Shown here piece after piece: positions 3,437 to 24,127 of a DNA stretch of 27,709 nt. The translations under genes were made by a program, and so were the position numbers. The notes under the pieces were generated by a model. The model did not search any database. It saw only the letters and a list, made by a program, of their open reading frames with translations, and was not told the DNA's origin. Source of the DNA: a virus; the IMG/VR virus record IMGVR_UViG_3300047089_000014, positions 1 through 27,709 of that record, one strand, 5' to 3'. Each line of letters starts with the position of its first letter. The stretch's first letter is position 1.

Positions 3437-4038
3437 TGGACAGACGAGGATTCCTCACCACGCTATTTGGTGGAGCGACAGCGGCAGTCTTGCTTCCTCG
3501 CATCGATTTGACTGTTGCGAAGAATGCTCCTGCATGGAACGACATCGAGAAACTGCAATGGGACTCCACCTATAGCGAGGCGCTATCTGAAGCACACCGG
3601 ATCTTTTGCACCGAGATGTCCTCACACGGATTCCATATCCATCCCATGCACACCGATCGGCTTGCATCGCGAATCGGTGAAAGGGCTTGGGACGGCATCG
3701 TGATGACTACGCAGAAATCTGTGTTGGTCACAAATACGGATACGGAACGGTGCTTAATTCCCGCGATGTCCTGTATGGCGAATGAACTATCGCACCGTGG
3801 CATTGATAGATTCGGGACATTGATATTGCCGCAAGGCGTAGAATTTTCTGGAATACGTGGACCACTCCGTATGTGCGTTCAATATCAGATCGAACATGGC
3901 TATGTGACGCGATTCGATGTATTGGGTGGTTCATCGCCAGAGGCTCAGCGCGTCGTCAGGGCATATGATGCCGAGTATCTCAAGAGCAAGATCCGTAGAC
4001 GCCTAGGCACATATCGCAATCCATCGAGGTTGATGTGA
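3436..4038 (+). CDS. Tat-signal-bearing phage protein of unknown function
   Basis: The 200-residue product starts MDRRGFLTTLFGGATAAVLL. This matches the twin-arginine pattern R-R-x-F-L followed by a moderately hydrophobic, Ala/Gly-rich core ending near residue 21. Proteins starting this way occur in many environmental phages and are usually annotated only by the signal. The mature part contains His-rich HIHPMH and several isolated cysteines and looks like an alpha/beta domain; no family is identified. If the signal works, the folded protein would be exported to the periplasm. The ATG overlaps the previous stop (TGATG) and the end overlaps the next GTG. An alternative view is that the hydrophobic N-terminus acts as an anchor or in virion assembly. 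Confidence 0.65.
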   Translation: MDRRGFLTTLFGGATAAVLLPRIDLTVAKNAPAWNDIEKLQWDSTYSEALSEAHRIFCTEMSSHGFHIHPMHTDRLASRIGERAWDGIVMTTQKSVLVTNTDTERCLIPAMSCMANELSHRGIDRFGTLILPQGVEFSGIRGPLRMCVQYQIEHGYVTRFDVLGGSSPEAQRVVRAYDAEYLKSKIRRRLGTYRNPSRLM

Positions 4039-4457
4039 GTTGGACAGAAGACGACTACCGCGCTCTGATGTCCAATCGTGGACGTGAAGCGCAAGCCGCA
4101 GCGCCAGCCAAGCCAGCGAAATATCGCAATGTGAAGTGTGTGGCTGATGGGCAGACCTTCGATTCGCGCCGTGAAGCGGATTACTGGCTGCTCCTGAAAG
4201 CGCGAGAGCAACTCGGAGAGATTACCGGCCTACGGCGCCAGGTCCGCTTTCCGCTCTGCTGTCCTGACCCGCTGAAACCTGCGATGACGTTCGTGGTGTC
4301 CTATTATGTTTCGGATTTCGTATACGAGACATATAACGCCGTGCAGGACAGAAACATCATGCACGTCATCGACGCCAAAGGCGTGCGGACGCAGCTGTAT
4401 CGACTCAAACGGAAATGGTTGGAACTCCAGACCGGCATCGTCGTGCAAGAGGTGTGA
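4035..4457 (+). CDS. DUF1064-type protein, nuclease fold
   Basis: The 140-residue product has the hallmark order of DUF1064: KYRNVKC near residue 29, then FDSRREADYWLLL (about 42-54), the strand GLRRQVRFPL, YVSDFVYE, and HVIDAKGVRTQLYRLKRKW near the C-terminus. The family adopts a PD-(D/E)xK restriction-endonuclease-like core. The E of SRREA, the D of SDFVY, and D-A-K in VIDAKG occupy the expected catalytic positions. Such phage enzymes are thought to be junction or structure-specific nucleases. It starts at GTG, with a GTGA overlap with the upstream stop. Confidence in the family is high; the exact substrate is not known. Confidence 0.8.
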   Translation: MSWTEDDYRALMSNRGREAQAAAPAKPAKYRNVKCVADGQTFDSRREADYWLLLKAREQLGEITGLRRQVRFPLCCPDPLKPAMTFVVSYYVSDFVYETYNAVQDRNIMHVIDAKGVRTQLYRLKRKWLELQTGIVVQEV

Positions 4458-4932: not shown

Positions 4933-5180
4933 TTGAAGTGTTCGCTACACCGCTGATCGCGGAAGACCCTGTGAACTACTTTAAGCCGCTTGGGCTCATT
5001 CAGACCAATCAAATAAAGCTTGTGCGGCCCTATGATGGAGCGAACTGCCGTGCGGAACTCTATCGCGGCGGTCCACTTTCATACGACGTGGTGTATATCC
5101 GTCATTCGTATGAAGAAGTCAACCATCGACCACTTCGCGTGCGCGGACTGTGTGAAGAAAAGTGGCGCGGGTTTCATTGA
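4929..5180 (+). CDS. Hypothetical protein
   Basis: The 83-residue product (MIEVFATPLIAEDPVNYFKP at its start) is not recognised. It has alternating hydrophobic segments suggesting a small mixed fold and a basic C-terminus. The ATG at 4929 overlaps the stop of the membrane-protein gene (ATGA). The frame stays open well upstream, but those residues are only the shadow of the preceding genes. Function is unknown. Confidence 0.55.
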   Translation: MIEVFATPLIAEDPVNYFKPLGLIQTNQIKLVRPYDGANCRAELYRGGPLSYDVVYIRHSYEEVNHRPLRVRGLCEEKWRGFH

Positions 5181-5193
5181 GCACATCCGATGA
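5110..5193 (+). CDS. Possible 27-residue CxxC micro-protein
   Basis: A short frame starts at ATG 5110 inside the end of the preceding gene and ends in a TGATG-type junction with the next one. The product contains HFACADCVKKSGAGF, again a CxxC pair with adjacent basic residues. The junction and motif match the local style, but the start lacks a clear ribosome site and the frame is short, so this is only a candidate. Confidence 0.25.
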   Translation: MKKSTIDHFACADCVKKSGAGFIEHIR

Positions 5194-5393
5194 TGGCTAA
5201 GATGAGCACATGGCAACGAATTGAGAACGCGCCGAATCGCATTCCGGTCCTTGTATTTGCCCAATCTCAACCGGACCACAGAGTTTGGATTTCTGTGCGT
5301 TTTGAAGATGAATGGTATGCGGACGATGCGGAGGATATGTTCCCAGACCCTACGCATTGGATGCCACTTCCAGATCCTCCGAGTATCGGCTGA
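5190..5393 (+). CDS. DUF551-type phage protein
   Basis: The 67-residue product matches the layout of DUF551 proteins: an N-terminal WQRIENAPNRIPVLVF, a central strand with FEDEWYADD, and the ending THWMPLPDPPS, which is the signature of the family. Such proteins are frequent in phage early regions, and no molecular function is established. Several ATGs are possible (5190, 5193, 5202); the first is annotated because it overlaps the preceding short frame. The end overlaps the next gene by TGATG. Confidence 0.75.
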   Translation: MMAKMSTWQRIENAPNRIPVLVFAQSQPDHRVWISVRFEDEWYADDAEDMFPDPTHWMPLPDPPSIG

Positions 5394-5671
5394 TGCCTGT
5401 CGAACTGCTTCGCGTCGAACGCATCGATTCATGGGACAGCAATGCCTCCAGCCACAATGTCTGGTTGGTGCGCGGATGGACCATCGAAGAAGAGCCGCGA
5501 CTGCTCACCGTGCGGACGCTCAATGCGTGGAACGCCTCACTCTGCAAGCAAGCGATGGCTCTGAAGCAACTGGTCTGGATTGGCTGGAAGGCTGGCCGCT
5601 ACGGTGCGCGAGACATGGTGACGGTGAAGCTGGACGACACGAAATTTCAGCACGATGAGGCGAGCCAGTGA
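5393..5671 (+). CDS. Hypothetical protein
   Basis: The 92-residue product (MPVELLRVERIDSWDSNASS at its start) shows no known motif. Aromatic-rich strand-like segments (NVWLVRGWTI, LVWIGWKAG) suggest a compact alpha/beta fold. The ATG at 5393 overlaps the DUF551 stop, and its own end overlaps the HNH gene start (GTGA). It is therefore most likely cotranscribed and translationally coupled with both. Function is unknown. Confidence 0.6.
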   Translation: MPVELLRVERIDSWDSNASSHNVWLVRGWTIEEEPRLLTVRTLNAWNASLCKQAMALKQLVWIGWKAGRYGARDMVTVKLDDTKFQHDEASQ

Positions 5672-5928
5672 TTCGGAAGAAGCCAGGGCCAACGGCACGC
5701 TATCGAGCGAAGCGTAAACGGGCGAAGGCGAAGGTCGTCAAGGTGGTGCGACCACAACTGGTGCATCGCGCTAATGCGGCCTGTGAACGCTGCGGCGAGT
5801 TCTGTGGAGACTTCGGCCATGCCCATCACCGCATTCCGCGCAGTCGCGGCGGACAATGGACCTTGGATAACATGGAATATCTCTGTCCAGAATGTCATCA
5901 ACTCGCGCATCTGGAGAACGCCCTGTGA
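5668..5928 (+). CDS. HNH endonuclease
   Basis: This 86-residue protein has a basic N-terminus (residues 1-30) and then a zinc-stabilised HNH fold. CERC (39-42) pairs with CPEC (73-76), the active motif HAHHRIPRSRGG starts at residue 51, N68 follows, and H77 lies after the second Cys pair. These are the expected metal-binding and catalytic residues of HNH nucleases. In many phages an HNH protein works with the terminase during DNA packaging. Here it lies about 2.8 kb upstream of TerL, so either packaging or general nuclease activity is possible. It starts at GTG with a GTGA overlap with the previous gene. The small size is normal for the family. Confidence 0.8.
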   Translation: MIRKKPGPTARYRAKRKRAKAKVVKVVRPQLVHRANAACERCGEFCGDFGHAHHRIPRSRGGQWTLDNMEYLCPECHQLAHLENAL

Positions 5929-6050
5929 TCCGGCAGTTGTGGCGCATCATGCGGGAGTGGCGGCATCGCTGGGACATCTGGACCTCACCCCATCTCCCGC
6001 TCAGTGCAGAACGTCGTCAACAACTGCGTCGGACCTATCTTGAGGATTAG
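5925..6050 (+). CDS. Very small basic hypothetical protein
   Basis: A GTG at 5925 overlaps the HNH stop (GTGA) and opens a 41-codon frame ending 2 bp before the next gene. The product is rich in Arg and Trp (MIRQLWRIMREWRHRWDIW) and predicted helical. It might bind nucleic acid or membranes. The tight junctions on both sides favour a real gene, but no homology is recognised. Confidence 0.45.
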   Translation: MIRQLWRIMREWRHRWDIWTSPHLPLSAERRQQLRRTYLED

Positions 6051-6052
6051 CC

Positions 6053-6313
6053 ATGACTGACGCGGATCGCGCCGCCCTGAAAGCCCTGGTGGAGCAATGG
6101 CGTGCCGAGTCTGGTAGTTGGGAACCAGGTATCGGCAGCGGCATCGAAATGTGTGCCGATGAACTCTCCGCCCTGATCGCCGCAGGGCTGAGCGAGGCAC
6201 CAGCGTTTGAATATGCCCATGGCGTAGCGAGGGACATGTGGTGCAATTTATGTAACCGCCAACTCGATGCGCTGTGCGAGGCACCAGCACCGCAGGAGAA
6301 GGAACATGAGTAA
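6053..6313 (+). CDS. Hypothetical protein with a CxxC pair
   Basis: The 86-residue product has an N-terminal helix (DADRAALKALVEQWRAESG) followed by a WEPGIGSGIEMCADELSALI segment. That is the common layout of short phage proteins thought to help form helical bundles. One CNLC pair sits near residue 66. It overlaps the next gene by 8 bp. The N-terminal design is shared with the following gene (LRRRAAALTGQSWERTANRD), so the two may be distant paralogues. Confidence 0.55.
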   Translation: MTDADRAALKALVEQWRAESGSWEPGIGSGIEMCADELSALIAAGLSEAPAFEYAHGVARDMWCNLCNRQLDALCEAPAPQEKEHE

Positions 6314-6653
6314 CTTGCCGAAGCGCGATGCGAAGCAGTTGATCGAATCGCTGCGAAGACGGGCGGCGGCTCTGACGGGGCAATCATGGGAACGCACCGC
6401 GAACCGCGACATGATGAACGAAGCCGCGCAGATGCTAGAAGACCTCACGGCGCCGGCCTCGCTCCGTCCAGCCCCAGAAGTGAAACATTCGGTGCTTGCT
6501 CACAAATACAACGACCGAAACTCATGCGAGGCGTGTCACCTATTCTGGTGCATGTCGCGCAACCAAGCGGACGGTGTGTTTGAACCGTACGAATGCACTT
6601 GCGATCTGATTCCGCTGGCCTCTCCCGCACCCCCGAAGGAGCCACAGCCATGA
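6306..6653 (+). CDS. Hypothetical Cys-rich protein
   Basis: The 115-residue product begins MSNLPKRDAKQLIESLRRRA, contains a helical segment, and then has a Cys-rich half: CEAC, FWC, and CTC near the C-terminus. At least five cysteines could bind zinc. The start at 6306 has a strong ribosome site (GGAGAAGG just upstream), overriding the earlier in-frame ATG. Its end reaches the ATG of the truncated 5' copy of the gene at 7632, so before the radical SAM cassette was acquired it probably abutted that gene directly. Confidence 0.6.
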   Translation: MSNLPKRDAKQLIESLRRRAAALTGQSWERTANRDMMNEAAQMLEDLTAPASLRPAPEVKHSVLAHKYNDRNSCEACHLFWCMSRNQADGVFEPYECTCDLIPLASPAPPKEPQP

Positions 6654-6675
6654 CTGAGCCGGTGCGACCGCTGGA
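6649..6675. repeat. Direct repeat, left copy (27 bp)
   Basis: A 27-bp sequence containing ATGACTGAGCCGGTG at 6650-6664 is identical to 7631-7657. It starts one base before a start codon and runs through eight full codons and the first two bases of the ninth. The two copies bracket the radical SAM gene, and the flanking sequences differ on both sides. Confidence 0.9.
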
Positions 6676-6691
6676 ACACAAGTGCGCGTAG
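6650..6691 (+). pseudogene. Truncated 5' end of the gene at 7632
   Basis: The left repeat carries the start codon and first codons of the downstream gene (MTEPVRPLE), then diverges to HKCA and a stop at 6691. It retains an AAGGAG ribosome site at 6635-6640. The 13-residue product is unlikely to have its own function. It overlaps the radical SAM GTG at 6682, so translation of this remnant could couple to the radical SAM gene. Confidence 0.65.
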
Positions 6692-7635
6692 GACTGTTCG
6701 ATCTGGATCGCACGGGCTTTCCAAATGTCGCGCTGATGAAGCTCTCAGCATGGCACAAGGCGCAAGGCGATACCGTGCTTCCCCTCAATAGCGGCGAGTC
6801 TGCCGATCAGCGGTATGGGTCTGTGGTGTTCACGTGGAATCGACACAAGGCGGCGGCATTGACGGCACAAGGCGCGGTCGTGGGCGGGAGCGGCGTGAGT
6901 CTCTCCGATGAACTTCCGGCCCATGTGGAGGCAATGCGGCCCGACTACAGCCTCTACGGCATCGACTATGGGATCGGCTATCTACAACGCGGGTGCATTC
7001 GGACCTGTGCGTTCTGTGTGGTGCCTGAGAAGGAAGGCAAGCCCCGCGCCGTCGCATCGATCGACGACCTATTGAACCAGACGACCGACCGCCGTCCGTT
7101 CGTCGTGTTGCTCGATAACGAGTTTTTCTGGAACCTGAAATGGGCGACCGCGCAATTGGAGGCGTTCACGGCACGCGGCATCGACTTCTGTCCGAGTCAA
7201 GGGCTGGACATCCGGTGCGTCACGCCAGCCTTAGCATCCGCGCTCGCGGTGTCGCCGTTCTGGAACGTCTCGCATTCGCGCCGACAAATCACGTTCGCGT
7301 TTGATGACATCGCGATCGCCGCTCGGTATCGACGGGGCGTTGAGGACTTACTCGCGGCTGGCATCAAGGCATGGCAGCTTCAGAGCTTCGTGCTTGTGGG
7401 CTTCAATTCCACGATTGAGCAGGACTTACAGCGGATTGCCATTATCCGCGAATACGGCATCGATCCGTTCGTGATGGTCTATCGCGACTTCCATACAGGG
7501 AAGGCTGGCCGAGACCGCGTGCGGTTGAACTTGGCGCGATGGGTCAATCGACGGCTCTACAAGACATGTGCCTTTGAGGATTATGAACCAGAGGCGCGGC
7601 GTCTTTCACAGCGATTGCTTTGGAGTGTGGCATGA
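6682..7635 (+). CDS. Radical SAM domain protein carried by the phage
   Basis: The 317-residue protein has an N-terminal region starting MRVGLFDLDRTGFPNVALMK that resembles the cobalamin-binding-like or Rossmann lead-in of some phage and MiaB/Elp3-like radical SAM proteins. The radical SAM cluster motif CxxxCxxC follows at C105, C109 and C112 (GCIRTCAFC), and these cysteines would ligate a 4Fe-4S cluster that cleaves S-adenosylmethionine. Downstream strand and helix alternation fits the barrel, including LQSFVLVGFNST. Substrate is unknown; modification of DNA, RNA or a protein are possibilities. The GTG at 6682 overlaps the truncated frame; the end overlaps the next ATG (ATGA). It is flanked by exact 27-bp direct repeats, suggesting acquisition as a cassette. 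Confidence 0.75.
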   Translation: MRVGLFDLDRTGFPNVALMKLSAWHKAQGDTVLPLNSGESADQRYGSVVFTWNRHKAAALTAQGAVVGGSGVSLSDELPAHVEAMRPDYSLYGIDYGIGYLQRGCIRTCAFCVVPEKEGKPRAVASIDDLLNQTTDRRPFVVLLDNEFFWNLKWATAQLEAFTARGIDFCPSQGLDIRCVTPALASALAVSPFWNVSHSRRQITFAFDDIAIAARYRRGVEDLLAAGIKAWQLQSFVLVGFNSTIEQDLQRIAIIREYGIDPFVMVYRDFHTGKAGRDRVRLNLARWVNRRLYKTCAFEDYEPEARRLSQRLLWSVA

Positions 7636-7657
7636 CTGAGCCGGTGCGACCGCTGGA
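7631..7657. repeat. Direct repeat, right copy (27 bp)
   Basis: This copy forms the natural 5' end of the gene at 7632, whose frame continues normally past the repeat. It matches 6649-6675 exactly. The distance between copies is 982 bp, so the unit is the repeat plus the radical SAM gene. Placement at the gene start suggests that insertion or duplication preserved the original gene. Confidence 0.9.
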
Positions 7658-8030
7658 GGCGCTGATCGCGGACATCAAGCATCTCCCGCGCTATTGGATG
7701 AAGATTCCGAATGCGGGGCAGTCACAAACGCAAGTGATCTGCGTCGTAGACCTGCAACGAATACTGGACGAACTCGCCGCGCTCCTCCAGGCTGCCGCCA
7801 CGCCTGCACCGACAGCGGATGTAATTAAGTTTCTACGCAATAGGGCGAGACTCCACTACATCAAAGGTGGCTTGGAGTACGAAATCCGTGCCTCTGAATG
7901 TGACGCACTCGCGGATGGTTTCGAGGAAGAACTAGCCGAAGCCGCCCCGCCTGAGCGCGTGAGCGAGGGGAAGAGGCCAGTGCTTCGTGATCCAGACGGA
8001 ATCGTGGAGCCGCGAGAGGAGCCGAGATGA
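7632..8030 (+). CDS. Hypothetical protein
   Basis: The 132-residue product begins MTEPVRPLEALIADIKHLPR and has mostly helical character. In the middle (FLRNRARLHYIKGGLEYEIR) it has an arrangement of charged and aromatic residues, and the C-terminus is acidic and Arg-rich. The start at 7632 overlaps the radical SAM stop and lies in the right 27-bp repeat. A GGAG at 7622-7625 may serve as the ribosome site. It would have followed the gene at 6306 directly if the radical SAM cassette was inserted later. No family is recognised. Confidence 0.6.
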   Translation: MTEPVRPLEALIADIKHLPRYWMKIPNAGQSQTQVICVVDLQRILDELAALLQAAATPAPTADVIKFLRNRARLHYIKGGLEYEIRASECDALADGFEEELAEAAPPERVSEGKRPVLRDPDGIVEPREEPR

Positions 8031-8233
8031 GTGAAACCTATTATCCGTCCTGTGAAGATGATCAATGCGGAAACTGCGGACATTTCGGTGATGAACATCT
8101 CTGTCCACCGTCCATCTGGTTGGAGATGCCTCACGCATGGACAGGGCTGATGGCTGGCTTTGCGCCAGCCGATATGGATTTCAGCACGACCAATAGCGGC
8201 GATGTAGGTGGACCAGTCTCGGAGAAACCATGA
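8027..8233 (+). CDS. Small CxxCxH protein, possible zinc binding
   Basis: The 68-residue product starts MSETYYPSCEDDQCGNCGHF. It contains C-x4-C-x2-C-G-H and a following H-L-C, enough ligands for one zinc site. The C-terminal half is Gly/Ser-rich and probably disordered. It overlaps both neighbours by four bases (ATGA). No family is recognised. Confidence 0.55.
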   Translation: MSETYYPSCEDDQCGNCGHFGDEHLCPPSIWLEMPHAWTGLMAGFAPADMDFSTTNSGDVGGPVSEKP

Positions 8234-8574
8234 CCAATGTCGAACGATTCAAAGAGCGGCTACAGAACGAGGATGCCATGAAGGACACGATTCCATTCCA
8301 GAGTCCGACGAATGTCATCGGCCAGTTGGACCGCGAGATTGCCGAGAATGCACTGCTCCGTCGAAGTCTCTCCGTGCTCACCTCACGCATCGAAGAATTG
8401 GAAGGTGAGATTGACAAGATGCGCGGAGAGACGATGCAGGTCATTCCAGACATCGAACGCATTGCCTCAGTGCTTCGCACGTTCTACTATGCGGACCTGA
8501 CCTTGAGCAATGTCCAACCGCTGTTAGCATTGTGTGTCGAACTCAACCCAGACATCATCGAACAACGTCGGTGA
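8230..8574 (+). CDS. Coiled-coil hypothetical protein upstream of terminase
   Basis: The 114-residue product has a long amphipathic helix (from LDREIAENALLRRSL through SRIEELEGEIDKM) with heptad spacing, so it probably oligomerises through a coiled coil. Its position near the large terminase raises the possibility of a small terminase, but the typical DNA-binding N-terminus is not evident, so this is not claimed. It overlaps the previous gene (ATGA) and the next GTG (GTGA). Confidence 0.55.
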   Translation: MTNVERFKERLQNEDAMKDTIPFQSPTNVIGQLDREIAENALLRRSLSVLTSRIEELEGEIDKMRGETMQVIPDIERIASVLRTFYYADLTLSNVQPLLALCVELNPDIIEQRR

Positions 8575-8732
8575 CGGTCACAGTCACGATCGTCCGGTGC
8601 TATTGTGCCGTCTGCAACTTCGCGGTCAGTGCGATGAGTATTGGTGCGCTTGTGGATGCCAAGAAAGAACATGAAGCGTATGTCCGATGGCTTGAGGATT
8701 TGCCGGCCATCATCATTCCGCCAGCGGTCTAG
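8571..8732 (+). CDS. Small CxCxxC protein directly upstream of TerL
   Basis: A GTG at 8571 overlaps the preceding stop and opens a 53-codon frame that ends 2 bp before the terminase ATG. The product starts MTVTVTIVRCYCAVCNFAVS, giving a C-x-C-x2-C cluster, followed by a helix and an Ile/Pro-rich end. It may bind metal. Its place immediately before TerL is where small terminase genes often lie, but its size and motif do not match that family. Confidence 0.5.
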   Translation: MTVTVTIVRCYCAVCNFAVSAMSIGALVDAKKEHEAYVRWLEDLPAIIIPPAV

Positions 8733-8734
8733 CC

Positions 8735-10192
8735 ATGCCTGAACTTGATTGGACAGGTATGGAAATTCATCTCGCCATCAAGCGGGATGTGAAAATGCCG
8801 GAACGGCTGATCGAGGGTTCTCTTGGATGTGCGAAAACTACGCTCGGTCTTGATTGTGAAATCGATGCGCTTATAAAGCATCCAGGCATTCCAGTCCTGC
8901 TATTCAGATGGACTGAGGATGCCGTGACTACGAAACTGCGTGTGGCCTTTGAGGAGTTGTGCCACATTCGCGGAATTGAACATTCATGGGATTCCAAGGA
9001 GAAACGCTATACGCTGCCGAACGGTTCGACAGCCTATGCCTTTGGACTGAAAGCGAACTCACTGGTGGAGGAGTTCAACAAGATTCGCGGCATCGGCGTC
9101 TCGCGCATTTTTGGCGACCAAGTTGAGGAGGTTCGTCCTTCCGTTGCCGCCGAACTGCGAGGAAGGCTCCGTCCGAATCTCGCGGCTACGCTCCGCAACG
9201 AACGCTATCCGATGCAACTCACATTCGTCGCGAACCCGTCCGATTATGAGTTTTGGTTGTCGAAGGAGTTTCCTGAATCGAACTCCATCAAGGGCCGGAA
9301 GATGTATTCCATTTCCATCTTCGACAACAAGCATCTGCCGCAAGAGAGCATCGATTCAATGCTGCGCCAATACGCACCTGATCATCCGAAATACCTGACG
9401 CTCGTCATGGGACGCCGAGGTCCGAACGTGACTGGAGTGCCCGTCTATGAAGGGCTGTATGACAAGTCGCTGCACTGGCGACCGATGGCTTACGATCCGC
9501 GCACGCCGATTCTCGAATCATTTGAGTTTGGTAAGCACACGCCGACATGGGTCTGCGCTCAGGCGCTCAGAAGCGGCGGTCTGGCGATCATCGGAGGCAT
9601 GATCGGGGAAGGGCTGGTGCTCGAGGACTTCCTGCCGCTGGTGCGACACTATCGCCAAGCATGGTTTCCGACAGAGGCGATCTACAAGACCTGCACTGGG
9701 CCAATGGGCGAGCAGCAACAATCCTTGCGCGGACGCTATACGCCACTCGACATCTTGCGGCGTCACGGCTTTTCAGCGCGGTGGCGCGACAACGGCAACT
9801 CACCGGACGTGCGCTTAGCTATGATCGAGAACATCGCCAGTTATCTCCGTCGTAGGAATGGCGGCGGCGAAGAATGCATCGGCGTGAATAATGCCGCTGA
9901 CCGCTTCATCATAGATTCGAGAGATGAGCATCGCGATTCCCCGTTCGTCCACCATGCGTTCGCTGGCGGTTATACATGGGATCCGCACTTCACGTCCGTT
10001 GCGAACAAGGAATTGCGGCAACCCTACGAAGACGATAAATTCGCTAATGTCATGCACGCCATCGAGAACATCGAACTAAACTTCTGCGCCGGTCAGCAGA
10101 CGCAAGCGGAGCAAGACACCAGGCGATCCGCAGCAGGGCATCAGATCCTGACCGACGAGTTCACGTCTCCTCATGCTTGGATGTGGCAATGA
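8735..10192 (+). CDS. Large terminase subunit (TerL)
   Basis: This 485-residue protein is the ATP-driven DNA packaging motor and headful nuclease. Residues 28-36 (GSLGCAKTT) form the Walker A site and residues 126-132 (FGDQVEE) the Walker B and catalytic acid region. The C-terminal half has the RNase H-like nuclease pattern starting at E264 (FEFGKHTPTWV), then LEDFLPLVRHYRQAWF, the motif NGNSPDVRLAMIE, and AFAGGYTWDPH. The length is close to P22 gp2. Two positions that are usually acidic differ: FDFG reads FEFG, and the usual DPAG stretch reads TGPMG at 321-325. It overlaps the next gene by four bases. The function is secure from motif order and genomic position; the activity of the nuclease site is less certain. 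Confidence 0.9.
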   Translation: MPELDWTGMEIHLAIKRDVKMPERLIEGSLGCAKTTLGLDCEIDALIKHPGIPVLLFRWTEDAVTTKLRVAFEELCHIRGIEHSWDSKEKRYTLPNGSTAYAFGLKANSLVEEFNKIRGIGVSRIFGDQVEEVRPSVAAELRGRLRPNLAATLRNERYPMQLTFVANPSDYEFWLSKEFPESNSIKGRKMYSISIFDNKHLPQESIDSMLRQYAPDHPKYLTLVMGRRGPNVTGVPVYEGLYDKSLHWRPMAYDPRTPILESFEFGKHTPTWVCAQALRSGGLAIIGGMIGEGLVLEDFLPLVRHYRQAWFPTEAIYKTCTGPMGEQQQSLRGRYTPLDILRRHGFSARWRDNGNSPDVRLAMIENIASYLRRRNGGGEECIGVNNAADRFIIDSRDEHRDSPFVHHAFAGGYTWDPHFTSVANKELRQPYEDDKFANVMHAIENIELNFCAGQQTQAEQDTRRSAAGHQILTDEFTSPHAWMWQ

Positions 10193-10359
10193 GAATCTGG
10201 GAGTGGTTCTACTTCCACTGCACCTGTAGACCATTCGATTGGGACACGTCAGACGATCCGCGATGCAGCATCTGCGGTCTACCGTCATCTCTGCATCCTG
10301 TCAAAACAAAGCGCGAATGGCTTCAGAAAATGCTATATTGTGCGGGAATCATCAGATGA
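10189..10359 (+). CDS. Small Cys-pair protein between TerL and portal
   Basis: The 56-residue product contains CTC near residue 11 and CSIC near residue 29, a spacing suitable for a zinc-binding knuckle, and Trp/Phe-rich flanks. The start overlaps the TerL stop (ATGA), and its end overlaps the next ATG. No family is identified. Its position suggests a packaging-linked accessory, although this is inference. Confidence 0.5.
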   Translation: MRIWEWFYFHCTCRPFDWDTSDDPRCSICGLPSSLHPVKTKREWLQKMLYCAGIIR

Positions 10360-10460
10360 GCGATAACGGACTGTGGGTCATGGGCCTAGTTCTTTCGGCG
10401 GTCGGGCTGCTCTGCTCAGGCATAGCATTGACTGCCATTTGGCTGGCGAGCCGTCTATGA
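10356..10460 (+). CDS. Single-span membrane micro-protein
   Basis: The 34-residue product starts MSDNGLWVMGLVLSAVGLLC and consists of one membrane-spanning helix with a short polar N-terminus and a C-terminal Arg. ATGA-type overlaps join it to both neighbours. It might act as a holin-like or regulatory membrane peptide. The next gene encodes a coiled-coil protein that could work with it. Confidence 0.5.
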   Translation: MSDNGLWVMGLVLSAVGLLCSGIALTAIWLASRL

Positions 10461-10729
10461 GCCATCAAGCAGCGTCTAACGGCGGTTTCCGTTGGCAGGA
10501 AATCTCGCGTGCGCGGTTTCAGGAAACCACAGCATCCATTCTGGGACAACAGAAACAGACCGCTGACGAACTGGCATTGAAGGTCAAGGCTCAGGGCGAG
10601 TTCCTCGCGGATATGTCGATGCGCCTGGACAACCATGCGGAATCCATCCGACTTCATACGGATGCGTTTATCGCATGGGGTTCACGGTCCTTCATGGCGC
10701 GTCTGCGCTGGATCTTCACAGGCAAATGA
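10457..10729 (+). CDS. Hypothetical helical protein
   Basis: The 90-residue product begins MSHQAASNGGFRWQEISRAR. A long amphipathic helix covers about residues 20-65 (starting FQETTASILGQQKQTADELA), suggesting a coiled coil. The basic, aromatic C-terminus (FMARLRWIFTGK) could touch membrane or DNA. It overlaps both neighbours by four bases. Function is unknown. Confidence 0.55.
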   Translation: MSHQAASNGGFRWQEISRARFQETTASILGQQKQTADELALKVKAQGEFLADMSMRLDNHAESIRLHTDAFIAWGSRSFMARLRWIFTGK

Positions 10730-11037
10730 GCGACGTGTCTGATCTGCTGGCGCTCTCGCAATCGGCACACACCGAGTATCAGCAGAACATGCCGCGCCAA
10801 TCGGCCCAAGGGATCATCCCTGGCAATCCAGAACTGGCTCGGGCCGCTCTTCAGCAAGCCTACGACCTCCGGGCACAAGCGGATTCGACAGACCCTGATC
10901 ATCTCGATCCAGCGTGGCTCATGGACCGTGCGCCCCATGAGACACTGATGGCCTTCTATACGAATCAAATGACCAAGGCTGATGAGAAAGAGGCAGCGCG
11001 ACTCGAGAAGAACACCAAGAAGGAATTGGCAACGTGA
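10726..11037 (+). CDS. Hypothetical protein upstream of portal
   Basis: The 103-residue product starts MSDVSDLLALSQSAHTEYQQ. It has helical segments rich in Ala and Gln (ARAALQQAYDLRAQADS) and a Lys/Glu-rich C-terminal tail. It is not recognised, but it sits directly before the portal gene and overlaps it (GTGA), so a head-assembly accessory role would be reasonable. The sequence shows no catalytic or metal site. Confidence 0.55.
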   Translation: MSDVSDLLALSQSAHTEYQQNMPRQSAQGIIPGNPELARAALQQAYDLRAQADSTDPDHLDPAWLMDRAPHETLMAFYTNQMTKADEKEAARLEKNTKKELAT

Positions 11038-13397
11038 TCGATGATGATGGCGAAGACATCACGCCAGATGACTCCATCCAAGACGCGATCGAGTGGTATC
11101 ACTTCGTCTGTGACACCGAACACGATCAAGACAAGCAAGAGCAAGAAGCGTTGCAATTCCAGCACGCCGAAGGCGCATGGCCCGATGATGTCAAAGGCCA
11201 GTTCTCCGCACTCGCGCCGAACTCTCCACAGAATCCTACAAATGTTCCGGTTCCAGCTCGGCCCATGCTCTCCGTCGCCTCAGCCGATGAACCGATTCTC
11301 CTTCAGGTCGCGCAGTTCCGACAGGCGCATCTAGCCGTTCGCATCCATCCCGTCAGCGACGACGCGAACGACGAAACCGCGAACATCATCCAGAGCCTCT
11401 ACCAGAACATCGAACGCGACTCTCGCGCCGACATTGCGCGTGGCTGGGCCTACGAACGGGGCTTATGGTGTGGACGAGGCGTCTATCGCGTCAATAAAGT
11501 CTTTGACTCCTACGGCGGTCACGAACTCGATCAGAAGATCACGATTGAACGGATCCTCGACCAGTCCACAGTGAAGCGTGACCCGTATGCCCAGCAGCCC
11601 GACTGGTCAGACGGCACGCGGCTCCAGATCACCGTGCCGATGTCCTTCGGCGCCTACAAAGCCAGGTATCCGAAATCGCGTGTCGGCAAGTTCAGCGATG
11701 CCACATTCGATTCGGAAGTCGAGAACTCAGGCAAGTGGCTGAGCATGGGCACAGACGACAACCGGCGCGTCACGGTCTGCGAAGAATGGCGCGTGGAGAC
11801 GAACGACCGGAAGAAGTCGCTGCTCGATGACCATTCGATGGGATTCGATGATGAAGACTTGCCGGAAGGTCGCACGAAGCTGACCGGCAAGGATGCTCGG
11901 AGCAGCACCGTCACCGAACGGCGCGTCTTCCGTCGTGTCATCAACTACACCGAAGTGCTGGAGCCCGAAGTGGAATGGGACGGGCAATACCTTCCCTTTC
12001 CCACAGCCATCGGGCGCGAACTTCAAGTCACCGATGGACGGCGTTCTTGGTTGGGCATGATCGGGAACGCCAAAGGCGCGATTCGTCTGACGAATTACGC
12101 GGCGACCAATGCCATTCGCATGGCCGCGCTCGAGCCGCGTGCGCCGTTCATCGGTGTTGAAGGTGTCTTTGAAGGCCACGCCGAATGGGGCATGGCGAAC
12201 ATCCGCGACTTCCCCTACCTGGAATACAAGCCGACCGACCTCTCAGGCCGACCAGCGCCTCCCCCACAGCGCAATCAGGTGGACATGAGCCGTCTCGGTC
12301 CATCGATGCAATTGCTGTCGATGGGTAAAGACTTCGTGCAGACGGCAATGGCGACCTACGGGCCGGCGCTCGGCACGCAGACACCGGCACATCGGTCTGG
12401 CAAGGCCATCGAAGCCTTGCAGGGGCAGACGATCAGTGCGAACTCGCCCTATATCGACAACTTCGCCAATATCACGATGACGTATGAGGCGATGATCATT
12501 CTGGACCTGATCCCAAAGGTCTACGACCGTCCGCAGCGCATCGCTAAAATTCTGGATGACAAGAATGTCTCATCGTGGGTGATGCTCAATCATCCCTTCG
12601 TGATGGGTGCGAATGGCCGACCGATCGCACTGCCCTATGAGACGGACCAAGAGAAGGCACAAGCTGATGCGATGGTGAATGACCCGAACCATCCAGCGAA
12701 ACACTACGACCTGACTAAAGGTCGCTACGGCTTAGAAGTGACCATCGGGAAGTCTTACAAGGACAAGCGCGATGAAGCGGTTGGGGAGATGGGGATCATC
12801 CTCCAGGCCGATCCGCAGATGATGCAGATCATCGGGCCGGAATACTTCCGTGAGAAGGGCGAAGCATGGGCGGCTCCCGTTGCAGACCTTCTGGAGAAGC
12901 ACAGGGACCATCAGTTTCCGTGGCTGGCGAAGAATCCGCAGCAAGTGGATCCGATGAAGGTCCAAGCCGAGAACCAGCAATTGAAGCAGCAACTGCAACA
13001 GGCTGGGCAGATCATCCAGACTAAGCAAGTTGAGACGCAGGGCAAAATCGCGGTCACGCAGATTCAGGAACAAGCCGAAACGGCGCGTGACCGTGCGGCG
13101 AATGAGACAAAGATTGCCGTGGCGGAACTCGGTGCAAAGGTGGATCGACTCTCGCTCTTCCTTGAGGAACGCGCACGGCTCGGTATCCAAGGGAACGACA
13201 ACCAGCAAGCGGGATTAGACCGCGCACATGAAGCCGCGATGGCTTCAGGTGACCATCAGGCGCAGATGGCTCAATCTGACCAGCAGCATCAGCAAGCCGT
13301 GGCACAGGCACAGCAGGGAGCCGCTAATACGGCATCGCAGTCCATCCTGGATGCTGCTCAACAACCACAGCCTGAACCGGCAGGAACGACGCAATGA
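11034..13397 (+). CDS. Portal protein, P22-like
   Basis: The 787-residue protein forms the ring through which DNA enters and leaves the head. Its family assignment comes from its length (P22 gp1 is about 725), its place after TerL, and sequence features typical of P22-type portals. These include IERDSRADIARGWAYERGLW near residue 130, YTEVLEPEVEWDGQYLPFP in the middle, and RSGKAIEALQGQ with YEAMIILDLIPKVYDRP before the stem and barrel region. Residues about 640-787 are Gln/Ala-rich with coiled-coil potential, corresponding to the C-terminal helical barrel, which is extended here. It starts at GTG overlapping the upstream stop. No frameshift is seen. Confidence 0.9.
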   Translation: MIDDDGEDITPDDSIQDAIEWYHFVCDTEHDQDKQEQEALQFQHAEGAWPDDVKGQFSALAPNSPQNPTNVPVPARPMLSVASADEPILLQVAQFRQAHLAVRIHPVSDDANDETANIIQSLYQNIERDSRADIARGWAYERGLWCGRGVYRVNKVFDSYGGHELDQKITIERILDQSTVKRDPYAQQPDWSDGTRLQITVPMSFGAYKARYPKSRVGKFSDATFDSEVENSGKWLSMGTDDNRRVTVCEEWRVETNDRKKSLLDDHSMGFDDEDLPEGRTKLTGKDARSSTVTERRVFRRVINYTEVLEPEVEWDGQYLPFPTAIGRELQVTDGRRSWLGMIGNAKGAIRLTNYAATNAIRMAALEPRAPFIGVEGVFEGHAEWGMANIRDFPYLEYKPTDLSGRPAPPPQRNQVDMSRLGPSMQLLSMGKDFVQTAMATYGPALGTQTPAHRSGKAIEALQGQTISANSPYIDNFANITMTYEAMIILDLIPKVYDRPQRIAKILDDKNVSSWVMLNHPFVMGANGRPIALPYETDQEKAQADAMVNDPNHPAKHYDLTKGRYGLEVTIGKSYKDKRDEAVGEMGIILQADPQMMQIIGPEYFREKGEAWAAPVADLLEKHRDHQFPWLAKNPQQVDPMKVQAENQQLKQQLQQAGQIIQTKQVETQGKIAVTQIQEQAETARDRAANETKIAVAELGAKVDRLSLFLEERARLGIQGNDNQQAGLDRAHEAAMASGDHQAQMAQSDQQHQQAVAQAQQGAANTASQSILDAAQQPQPEPAGTTQ

Positions 13398-22102: not shown

Positions 22103-24127
22103 ATGGCGTTTTTCTATCCGCCTCCACCGCCGTCGCAATCATCGAGTGTCACACCTCCTGTGCCGCATGAGCCACAGGGATCAACTGGCGATCAGCCTCC
22201 TCGTCGGCAAGTGCAGGCAGTTCTGGCGATGGCCGTCGTGTTGGCCTCATGGCCGGCAGACCTTGAGCCCAGACTTCAGGCGCCGAACAATCAGCAAGTC
22301 AAGAATGCAGCGGTCATTCCGCCGCCGCCATTTGTTCCGCCACAAATCCCGTTCACGCTTCAGATCCATCCGATCATCGGGCAATGGAAGACGGAATGGT
22401 CCGCGCAGACGATTATTGGCAATGCGGCGGTCATTCCGCCTCCGCCAATCGTTCAGCCGCCAGTTCCTTACAACACGCCACTGACGCATGTCTATGGTCA
22501 ATGGCTCCCGGCATGGCCGGCACAACGAGCGTTTGGCACGGCAGCGGTCTTGCCGCCTCCACCAGCGGCGAATCCGCCGATTGCGCGACAGCCACTGAGT
22601 ATCCTTGCGTCGTGGCATGAGCCAGCGGAGATTGACCTCGTTACGACGTGGACGATCGGACCTGATAATCCAGATCCACCTCCCATTCGTGGTCCGCTAG
22701 CCGCTCCATACTATTCGGTCGCGCAGCGGTCATGGCCGACGGAATGGTCCGCGCAGTCGGCACGGCATGTCACTCCACCGACATTCATTCCGCCGCCTCT
22801 ACCATCCCAGAAGACGCCATCGCTGAATGCCGTGCTGGCCTCATGGCCGGCATCGCTAGAGCCACGTCTACAGGCGCCGAACAATCAGGAGAACAAGATT
22901 GCCCCGCTGATGTGTCAGCCGGTGGGGCTCCCAGCGCATGACGAGTTCAACGTCAACTACGGGACTTCACTCGGGTCATGCAACTGGACAAACGTCATTG
23001 GGAATTTTGAAACCAATGGCATCAACGCCTTCCCAGGAGCAGTCGGTCAGAATCTTTCGTTCTGGAAAGAAACCACATTCTCTCCAGACCAGTTTGCCCA
23101 AGTCACGATTGCCGCATACGGTGGGGATACTCCAGGCATCGTCGTTCGCATCTCACCATCAGGGGATGCCTCCTATGCGATGGTGGGAGATGCCAGCGGT
23201 GGCACGATCACGCTCTACCAGACCGTCGCTGGCGTCGGCACGGCCATCCAGACCGTTTCAGGACTCACCCTCGTTGATGGAGATATCTATCGTCTACAGG
23301 TCATCGGATCTGCGCTGCAGATGTTCCTCAATACCGCGCAGATCGGCACGACACAAACCGATACCGCCGTCACGACTGGACAGCCTGGCATCTTCGTCAA
23401 CGACATCGCCTCGCCAGCCCTGCTCGATAATTTCATAGCCGACAACTTCACTGGGCAATATCCGACGCATCAGACAGGCTGGCTGAATCCAGGCATCTGG
23501 GCCGCAGCGTTCCCAGACCTCCAGATCGTTGTTGTCGATTCCAATGTCCTGATCCCGGTCAATTCACCAGATCAGCCAAATCCGCACGGTCCATACAGTC
23601 CGCAACAGTGGGTCATTCGGCAGGCATGGTCCAGCGACTGGCCTGAACCTCAGCGTCTGACGACGTTCGTGCCGCCGACGCCAAGTGCTCCACCTGTTCC
23701 GCAGGGACCACTGTCCGCGACAGCAGTCAGCGAACTGGTGCGATCGTGGCCGACCGACTGGCCTGAGCCTCAGCGGCTGACCGCATTCGTTCCGCCGACG
23801 CCATTCGCGCCTCCGACACCGCATGGACCACTGTCAGTCACGGCCATCAGTGAATTGGTCAGTCCGTGGCAACCGGCTTGGAACGCACAGCGTGCGCGGA
23901 ACATGACGGCGAGTCTGCCGTCTGGAACGGCTCCTCCTCCTGTCAGGTCGATCAGTAATGCGAATCTCGGAGCTTTAGTCAATCAATGGGTCCAGCATTG
24001 GGCAGCACAATCAGTGAAGCCAATGCAAACCATCAGTGGTGCTGCGCCTCCTCCATTCAATCCAGAATGGGCGACGAACAGTAACCAGATTGTTGGACCT
24101 TGGGCGCCTCAACCGGAGACGCATTAG
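22103..24127 (+). CDS. Proline-rich repeat fibre with an inserted lectin-like domain
   Basis: The 674-residue protein has three parts. Residues 1-277 contain degenerate repeats built from a Trp-x3-Trp/Leu...Gln core followed by a PPPP-type stretch (for example VIPPPPFVPPQ, PPPPIVQPPVP). Residues about 278-450 (from HDEFNVNYGTSLGSCNWTNV) form a LamG-like jelly roll with Trp, Asp and Gly spacing as in glycan-binding domains. Residues 451-674 resume proline-rich repeats, including two 40-residue copies encoded at 23641-23880. Such repeats suggest an extended spacer, with the lectin-like module presented in the middle. It probably forms part of the tail or a head fibre. The stop shares its last base with the next gene's GTG. 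Confidence 0.7.
   Translation: MAFFYPPPPPSQSSSVTPPVPHEPQGSTGDQPPRRQVQAVLAMAVVLASWPADLEPRLQAPNNQQVKNAAVIPPPPFVPPQIPFTLQIHPIIGQWKTEWSAQTIIGNAAVIPPPPIVQPPVPYNTPLTHVYGQWLPAWPAQRAFGTAAVLPPPPAANPPIARQPLSILASWHEPAEIDLVTTWTIGPDNPDPPPIRGPLAAPYYSVAQRSWPTEWSAQSARHVTPPTFIPPPLPSQKTPSLNAVLASWPASLEPRLQAPNNQENKIAPLMCQPVGLPAHDEFNVNYGTSLGSCNWTNVIGNFETNGINAFPGAVGQNLSFWKETTFSPDQFAQVTIAAYGGDTPGIVVRISPSGDASYAMVGDASGGTITLYQTVAGVGTAIQTVSGLTLVDGDIYRLQVIGSALQMFLNTAQIGTTQTDTAVTTGQPGIFVNDIASPALLDNFIADNFTGQYPTHQTGWLNPGIWAAAFPDLQIVVVDSNVLIPVNSPDQPNPHGPYSPQQWVIRQAWSSDWPEPQRLTTFVPPTPSAPPVPQGPLSATAVSELVRSWPTDWPEPQRLTAFVPPTPFAPPTPHGPLSVTAISELVSPWQPAWNAQRARNMTASLPSGTAPPPVRSISNANLGALVNQWVQHWAAQSVKPMQTISGAAPPPFNPEWATNSNQIVGPWAPQPETH
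23641..23880 (+). repeat. Two 120-bp direct repeats in the fibre gene
   Basis: Segments 23641-23760 and 23761-23880 are aligned in register with exactly 120-bp period. They share blocks such as the start GCCTGA[AG]CCTCAGCG and GGACCACTGTC. Each encodes a 40-residue unit of the Pro-rich repeat (EPQRLT.FVPPTP..PP.P pattern). Similar but shorter sequence pairs occur earlier, for example near 22242 and 22836 (offset 594 bp) and near 22391 and 22739 (offset 348 bp). All offsets are multiples of three, so the gene probably grew by in-frame duplication. Confidence 0.85.

Follow-up and report, generated by a model that had tools for sequence, protein, structure and literature searches.

The window, which is the whole stretch of DNA analysed here (27,709 nucleotides, positions 1 to 27,709 of the IMG/VR record IMGVR_UViG_3300047089_000014), belongs to a phage with P22-like portal and coat proteins and probably holds a linker-delimited cassette array, in which recombination at short linkers would swap small genes and domains. 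This reading is drawn from sequence comparison. An exact 27-nt repeat on both sides of a radical SAM (rSAM) gene is block A of six ordered DNA linkers, E-F-A-B-C-D (6173–8031, 22–49 nt each). The linkers are always translated in one frame as Pro/Ala/Glu-rich peptides, and several of them hold the ribosome site and the stop-start overlap of the next small gene. The region is composed of the following features.

6053–6313, + strand: 86-aa ORF that contains linker E and another E-like copy; missing from the relative L083
6173–6204, + strand: linker E (CTGATCGCCGCAGGGCTGAGCGAGGCACCAGC); exact copy in G020 at 28350
6271–6310, + strand: E', the second E-like copy, holding the ribosome site of the next gene (18-nt repeat at 94%, spacing 84)
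6306–6653, + strand: 115-aa ORF with linker F at its end
6621–6644, + strand: linker F (TCTCCCGCACCCCCGAAGGAGCCA), the ribosome site of the stub; exact copy in G020 at 28497
6649–6675, + strand: linker A, left copy (repeat search)
6650–6691, + strand: stub ORF of 13 codons (MTEPVRPLEHKCA), its stop overlapping the rSAM start region; proposed coupling leader
6682–7635, + strand: radical SAM protein, 317 aa, CX3CX2C (C105, C109, C112), phrog_9298
7631–7672, + strand: right copy of linker A, 42 nt long; G002 matches it throughout, G001 over 35 nt
7632–8030, + strand: 132-aa mosaic ORF, A-x-B-x-C-x-D
7771–7819, + strand: linker B (AALLQAAxPPAPTA; cross-phage comparison)
7940–7973, + strand: linker C (AAPPERVSEGK; cross-phage comparison)
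8003–8031, + strand: linker D (VEPREEP), with the ribosome site and ATGA overlap of the next gene
8027–8233, + strand: 68-aa gene that follows D; its DNA is 93% identical to G001 over 8003–8167

Repeat and pattern searches of the window give 27/27 identical nucleotides between 6649–6675 and 7631–7657. A repeat of this length is expected by chance 0.00 times (100 shuffles), and no third copy was found in the window with up to 3 mismatches allowed. The right copy supplies the ATG at 7632, which opens the 132-residue ORF ending at 8030. The left copy supplies the ATG at 6650, followed by 13 codons and a stop at 6689–6691, within the start of the rSAM gene. A complete rSAM ORF with a GTG start (6682–7635, 317 aa) lies between the two copies. 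ATGA stop-start overlaps are present at 6650 and 7632, and the ribosome-site pairing energies of the stub and the 132-aa gene are -8.0 and -10.2 kcal/mol. The initial annotation was right in these respects: it had described an exact 27-bp repeat, a right copy serving as the start of the 132-residue gene, a left copy forming a 13-codon stub of that start, an rSAM gene occupying, as one unit, the interval between the copies, and a ribosome site with a stop-start overlap kept at both junctions.

The A-rSAM-A junctions are very likely real, judging from the assembled sequences, since a separate assembly (L002/G018, IMGVR_UViG_3300046739_000155) carries both copies, at 1382 and 2364. The record L084/G019 carries the right junction. 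An assembly artefact is disfavoured by the recurrence of both junctions in L002, the basis being assemblies. L002 matches the window exactly over 5889–11987, differs from it at 44 sites in 5394–5888 and lacks the gene at 5190–5393; the change from differing to identical sequence at 5888/5889 has the appearance of a sharp recombination edge.

Isolated exact repeats of at least 18 nt are not rare: at least one was found in 16 of 43 background records and loci (two of these entries being the same contig), several of them at gene starts or ends. For this reason a doubled boundary sequence is weak evidence when taken alone, and the case is carried by the order of linkers across phages and by their silent-site identity. 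The doubled boundary phenomenon may be wider than this phage.

In a scan of viral contigs, the first 20 nt of the repeat were found in L082 (G001, 65.9 kb), L083 (G004) and L085 (G002, 41 kb). The cores of C and D occur in the same three records and in L145 (G020, 47 kb). In these four phages linker A opens proteins that differ from one another, or lies close to their starts; a few extra codons precede the A block in G020, so A is not always the exact gene start. The initial annotation had regarded the 27-mer as a duplication of the neighbour's start made by an insertion. This is not borne out, since the same sequence stands at other proteins in four phages and is one of six linkers. The order A-B-C-D is the same in the window, G004, G001 and G002, and a second array in G001 shows B-C-D at a contig end. 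The longer order E-F-A-B-C-D is common to the window and G020, the only other phage that shares E and F, both as exact copies.

Searches beyond these phages returned little. The B and C cores, sought in genome_contigs as a possible bacterial source of the linkers, gave 0 matches; isolated phage records gave no DNA match to 5000–12500; and the only relatives found for the 132-aa and 115-aa proteins are in L002 and L084/L086.

The linkers are nearly constant, and what lies between them is not. Mean pairwise identity within linkers A–D is 0.96–1.00 (5–6 arrays per linker, out of six arrays in five phages). In the adjoining 20-nt bins it is 0.22–0.54, mostly 0.22–0.37, where random sequence would give 0.25. 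Higher flank values are seen directly after A (0.46) and around D (0.37–0.54), next to a gene that is shared in part. Exact matches of at least 20 nt are confined to the linkers in 8 of the 10 genome pairs among five phages. The exceptions are the window with G002, which share tail genes too, and G002 with G003, which share one unrelated 20-mer; the exact match of the window with G002 at 7780 is linker B. The contents between linkers vary in length and sequence, and some include a stop as well as a new start. In the G002 record (L136) a tRNA-Leu(taa) gene (743–824) is placed inside the open frame between two B copies, the second B being at 832.

Four-fold silent sites in the linkers show 10 differences in 385 comparisons. 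In the portal gene, 82 of 364 such sites (23%) differ between the window and its nearest relative, L083. Since the linkers differ at so few of these sites, protein-level selection alone is insufficient, and the sequences indicate that linker conservation acts at the DNA level, beyond protein.

Several signs of exchange are seen. One 40-residue cassette, VTRLE..GR..VELSYQDxGRTLK, occupies slot B-B' of G002 and slot E-F of G020 with 67.5% identity; as it stands behind B in one phage and behind E in the other, cassettes change slots. Gene 8027 is 93% identical in DNA to G001 over 8003–8167, and beyond this gene and the linkers G001 has no exact 20-nt match with the window. By this sequence criterion, gene 8027 is a recently shared cassette between the window and an otherwise unrelated phage. 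Three segments are flanked by a doubled linker: by E/E' and by A/A in the window, and by B/B' in G002.

Linker length (22–49 nt) is near the minimum of about 30 bp for Red-beta, and phage Rad52-like recombinases act on short, diverged homology (PMC3945230). Among the array-bearing records, RecT is the recombinase found, in G002 only; models of ERF and YqaJ gave no match in these records, which are fragments. A separate observation is that the window encodes a Holliday junction resolvase-like protein at 4035–4457 (phrog_190, DUF1064).

From this pattern we infer homologous recombination at the linkers as the cause of the exchanges, and translational coupling likewise. Each slot between linkers would be exchangeable and could be a whole small gene, a piece of 20–60 residues or a tRNA gene. 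Matching linkers of co-infecting phages would recombine, so that a slot is replaced or added, and an added slot would end up between two copies of one linker. Linker A, as the 27-bp repeat, would then flank an added A-A slot with the rSAM gene. The left A, read from the ribosome site of linker F, would form a 13-codon leader feeding ribosomes to the weak GTG of the rSAM gene.

The translation chain of gene 6306, the stub, the rSAM gene, the 132-aa gene and gene 8027 is linked by ATGA overlaps, except at the rSAM gene, where the first letter of the stub's stop codon comes 7 nt after that of the GTG. Of the seven starts tested, that of the rSAM gene has the weakest ribosome site (-3.3 kcal/mol, the others lying between -6.0 and -10.2 kcal/mol). 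Many rSAM relatives have an upstream ORF whose end overlaps, or lies close to, the rSAM start. On these grounds, coupling of rSAM translation by the A stub, as the initial annotation had suggested, is plausible from the sequence. In this way a phage could take up an accessory enzyme, for instance a radical SAM protein, with its translation chain unbroken.

The initial annotation had proposed a single insertion of an rSAM cassette at the start of the 132-aa gene, with duplication of 27 bp of the target. The exact repeat does flank a complete gene, and L083, the nearest relative of the window (91–93% identical in nearby shared stretches), has one A and no rSAM. Nevertheless such an insertion is very improbable. 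The repeat occurs in phages lacking the rSAM gene, ahead of other proteins, and the ends of the unit have neither a transposase nor terminal inverted repeats. In L083 the gene ending at 6043 is joined directly to A, the joint being at ATGACTGA, and the genes at 6053 and 6306 are missing as well, so L083 is not the clean empty site. The ancestral junction sought for the insertion, gene 6306 followed by a single A and gene 7632, was not found among the relatives examined. Since G020 has E and F before A, the simpler sequence-based reading would be that E-F was lost in L083 and A-rSAM was gained in the lineage of the window. Relatives with the rSAM gene but no repeat had been named as contradicting the insertion, and the rSAM relatives L004–L008 (69–76% identity) have no copy of A; the repeat is therefore not a property of the rSAM gene. 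In isolated phage records the rSAM protein has matches only below 60% identity.

A rather unlikely history would make the left A what is left of a further A-D array of this mosaic family, in which the rSAM gene either took the place of the body or marks the end of a deletion. In that case the region would remain a linker array, but the rSAM gene would have been joined illegitimately 4 nt behind A instead of arriving by exchange between linkers, and the right A would belong to the surviving array. Two arrays do occur in one genome (G001), DNA homology to the rSAM relative L004 starts at 6680, 4 nt after the left A, and elsewhere the window and L083 differ by many gene-scale changes whose joints lie at start or stop codons without linkers. 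Against it, traces of B, C and D are absent between the left A and the rSAM gene, and E/E' and B/B' are doubled without any such remnant. It is hardly credible that the linkers were kept by selection on their peptides or translation signals, and not by recombination, while the contents diverged fast by mutation: the constant frame and the ribosome sites in the linkers would suit this, but their four-fold sites are nearly unchanged in genomes sharing almost nothing else, and the contents differ in length, stops and starts, and in one case contain a tRNA gene. A stronger form of the array reading, considered improbable, treats the linkers as dedicated exchange sites, that is, ordered and addressable slots which a phage recombinase would fill with genes, domains and tRNAs, so that proteins are assembled combinatorially across unrelated phages.

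Known classes of mobile units were also considered. Integron-like (attC-like) or stem-loop sites were rejected, since the linkers fold no better than shuffles. Promoter cassettes were rejected, as promoter-like sites are not in excess. A transposon or insertion sequence was rejected; the unit holds only the rSAM gene.

The rSAM protein falls in phrog_9298 (E 5.5e-64). Its CX3CX2C motif (C105, C109, C112) is present in at least 95% of 30 sequences and invariant in 14. The structural model (pLDDT 87) matches AprD4 (Z 19.1, rmsd 3.3 over 293), MgmA (Z 18.8) and MiaB (Z 17.4). The cluster motif and the near full-length fold (Z 17–19) are shared with these enzymes at 13–17% identity to the solved structures, and none of the NCBIfam models came near its cut-off. 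By motif in the sequence and fold in the model, the protein belongs to the radical SAM superfamily. Its 4Fe-4S/SAM chemistry is putative, and the fold common to AprD4, MgmA and MiaB does not show its substrate.

Short conserved boundary sequences were reportedly proposed by Clark and colleagues, from HK620 and the nin region, to drive mosaicism of lambdoid phages. The array fits this boundary-sequence mosaicism, which is of a known kind. As in the lambdoid case, near-identical short DNA stands at gene boundaries, the contents are unrelated, and recombination by general or phage enzymes is assumed. The difference here is that the linkers are ordered and largely intragenic, many being translated inside one ORF, and that they occur in phages otherwise nearly unrelated, with almost no other exact 20-nt match. 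In T4-type mobile regulatory cassettes, short repeated elements have been proposed to shuffle small early genes. These cassettes resemble the present array in combining short repeated elements with small genes, whereas the linkers have no promoter-like excess and no stem-loop.

The model of boundary-sequence mosaicism has been summarised (PMC3029335, PMC3233612). In mycobacteriophage Island3, compared with Brujita, an extra small gene (genes 67/68) lies between two copies of a 50–60 bp boundary sequence, and the relative has one recombinant copy (PMC3029335). This resembles the A-A slot in that an extra small gene is flanked by copies of a boundary sequence. The Island3 repeat is at gene 3' ends and its single-copy relative is known, whereas the repeat described here is at gene starts and a clean single-copy relative was not found. 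The start-associated sequences (SAS) of cluster K mycobacteriophages, 13 bp with the consensus GGGATAGGAGCCC, are located 3–7 bp upstream of the start (PMC3203893). Like the linkers, they are repeated at starts of small non-structural genes and have a ribosome-site core; unlike SAS, the linkers are longer, lie in coding sequence and come in several kinds. In the window the SAS consensus has 0 matches with up to 2 mismatches allowed. A narrow-term literature search returned nothing on linker arrays or radical SAM cassettes.

Opinion is divided on whether phage mosaicism arises through recombination at short shared boundaries or through random joins that selection then filters (PMC3029335, PMC3233612, PMC3945230). 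Near-identical ordered boundaries with unrelated contents make this old question testable, since deletion and swap products would be predicted at defined linkers.

Other linker sets were observed in L088/L090, L006/L007 and L013/L014. Isolated linkers stand at small genes in L088 (945, 1317, 1493, 1833) and L090 (5077–5914), for example ATGACTGACGGCGTCCTGACGGCAGAGGCACGGC and TCGCTGGCGTTCAGCGCACGGGAGCCGAGA, some of them repeated in one phage. Two adjacent ORFs upstream of an rSAM relative in L007 share a 29-nt start block (4754/5292) and a 27-nt inner block (4864/5426); the sequence between the shared blocks differs, which is the same design with other linkers. The G001 record L132 has a 53-nt exact direct repeat (18900 and 19130, 230 bp apart) with a ribosome-site-like end and ATGA. 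Downstream of the structural genes of the window, a 674-aa ORF contains diverged direct repeats at 22237–22911 and 23627–23866 (120 nt at 74%, 81 nt at 78%).
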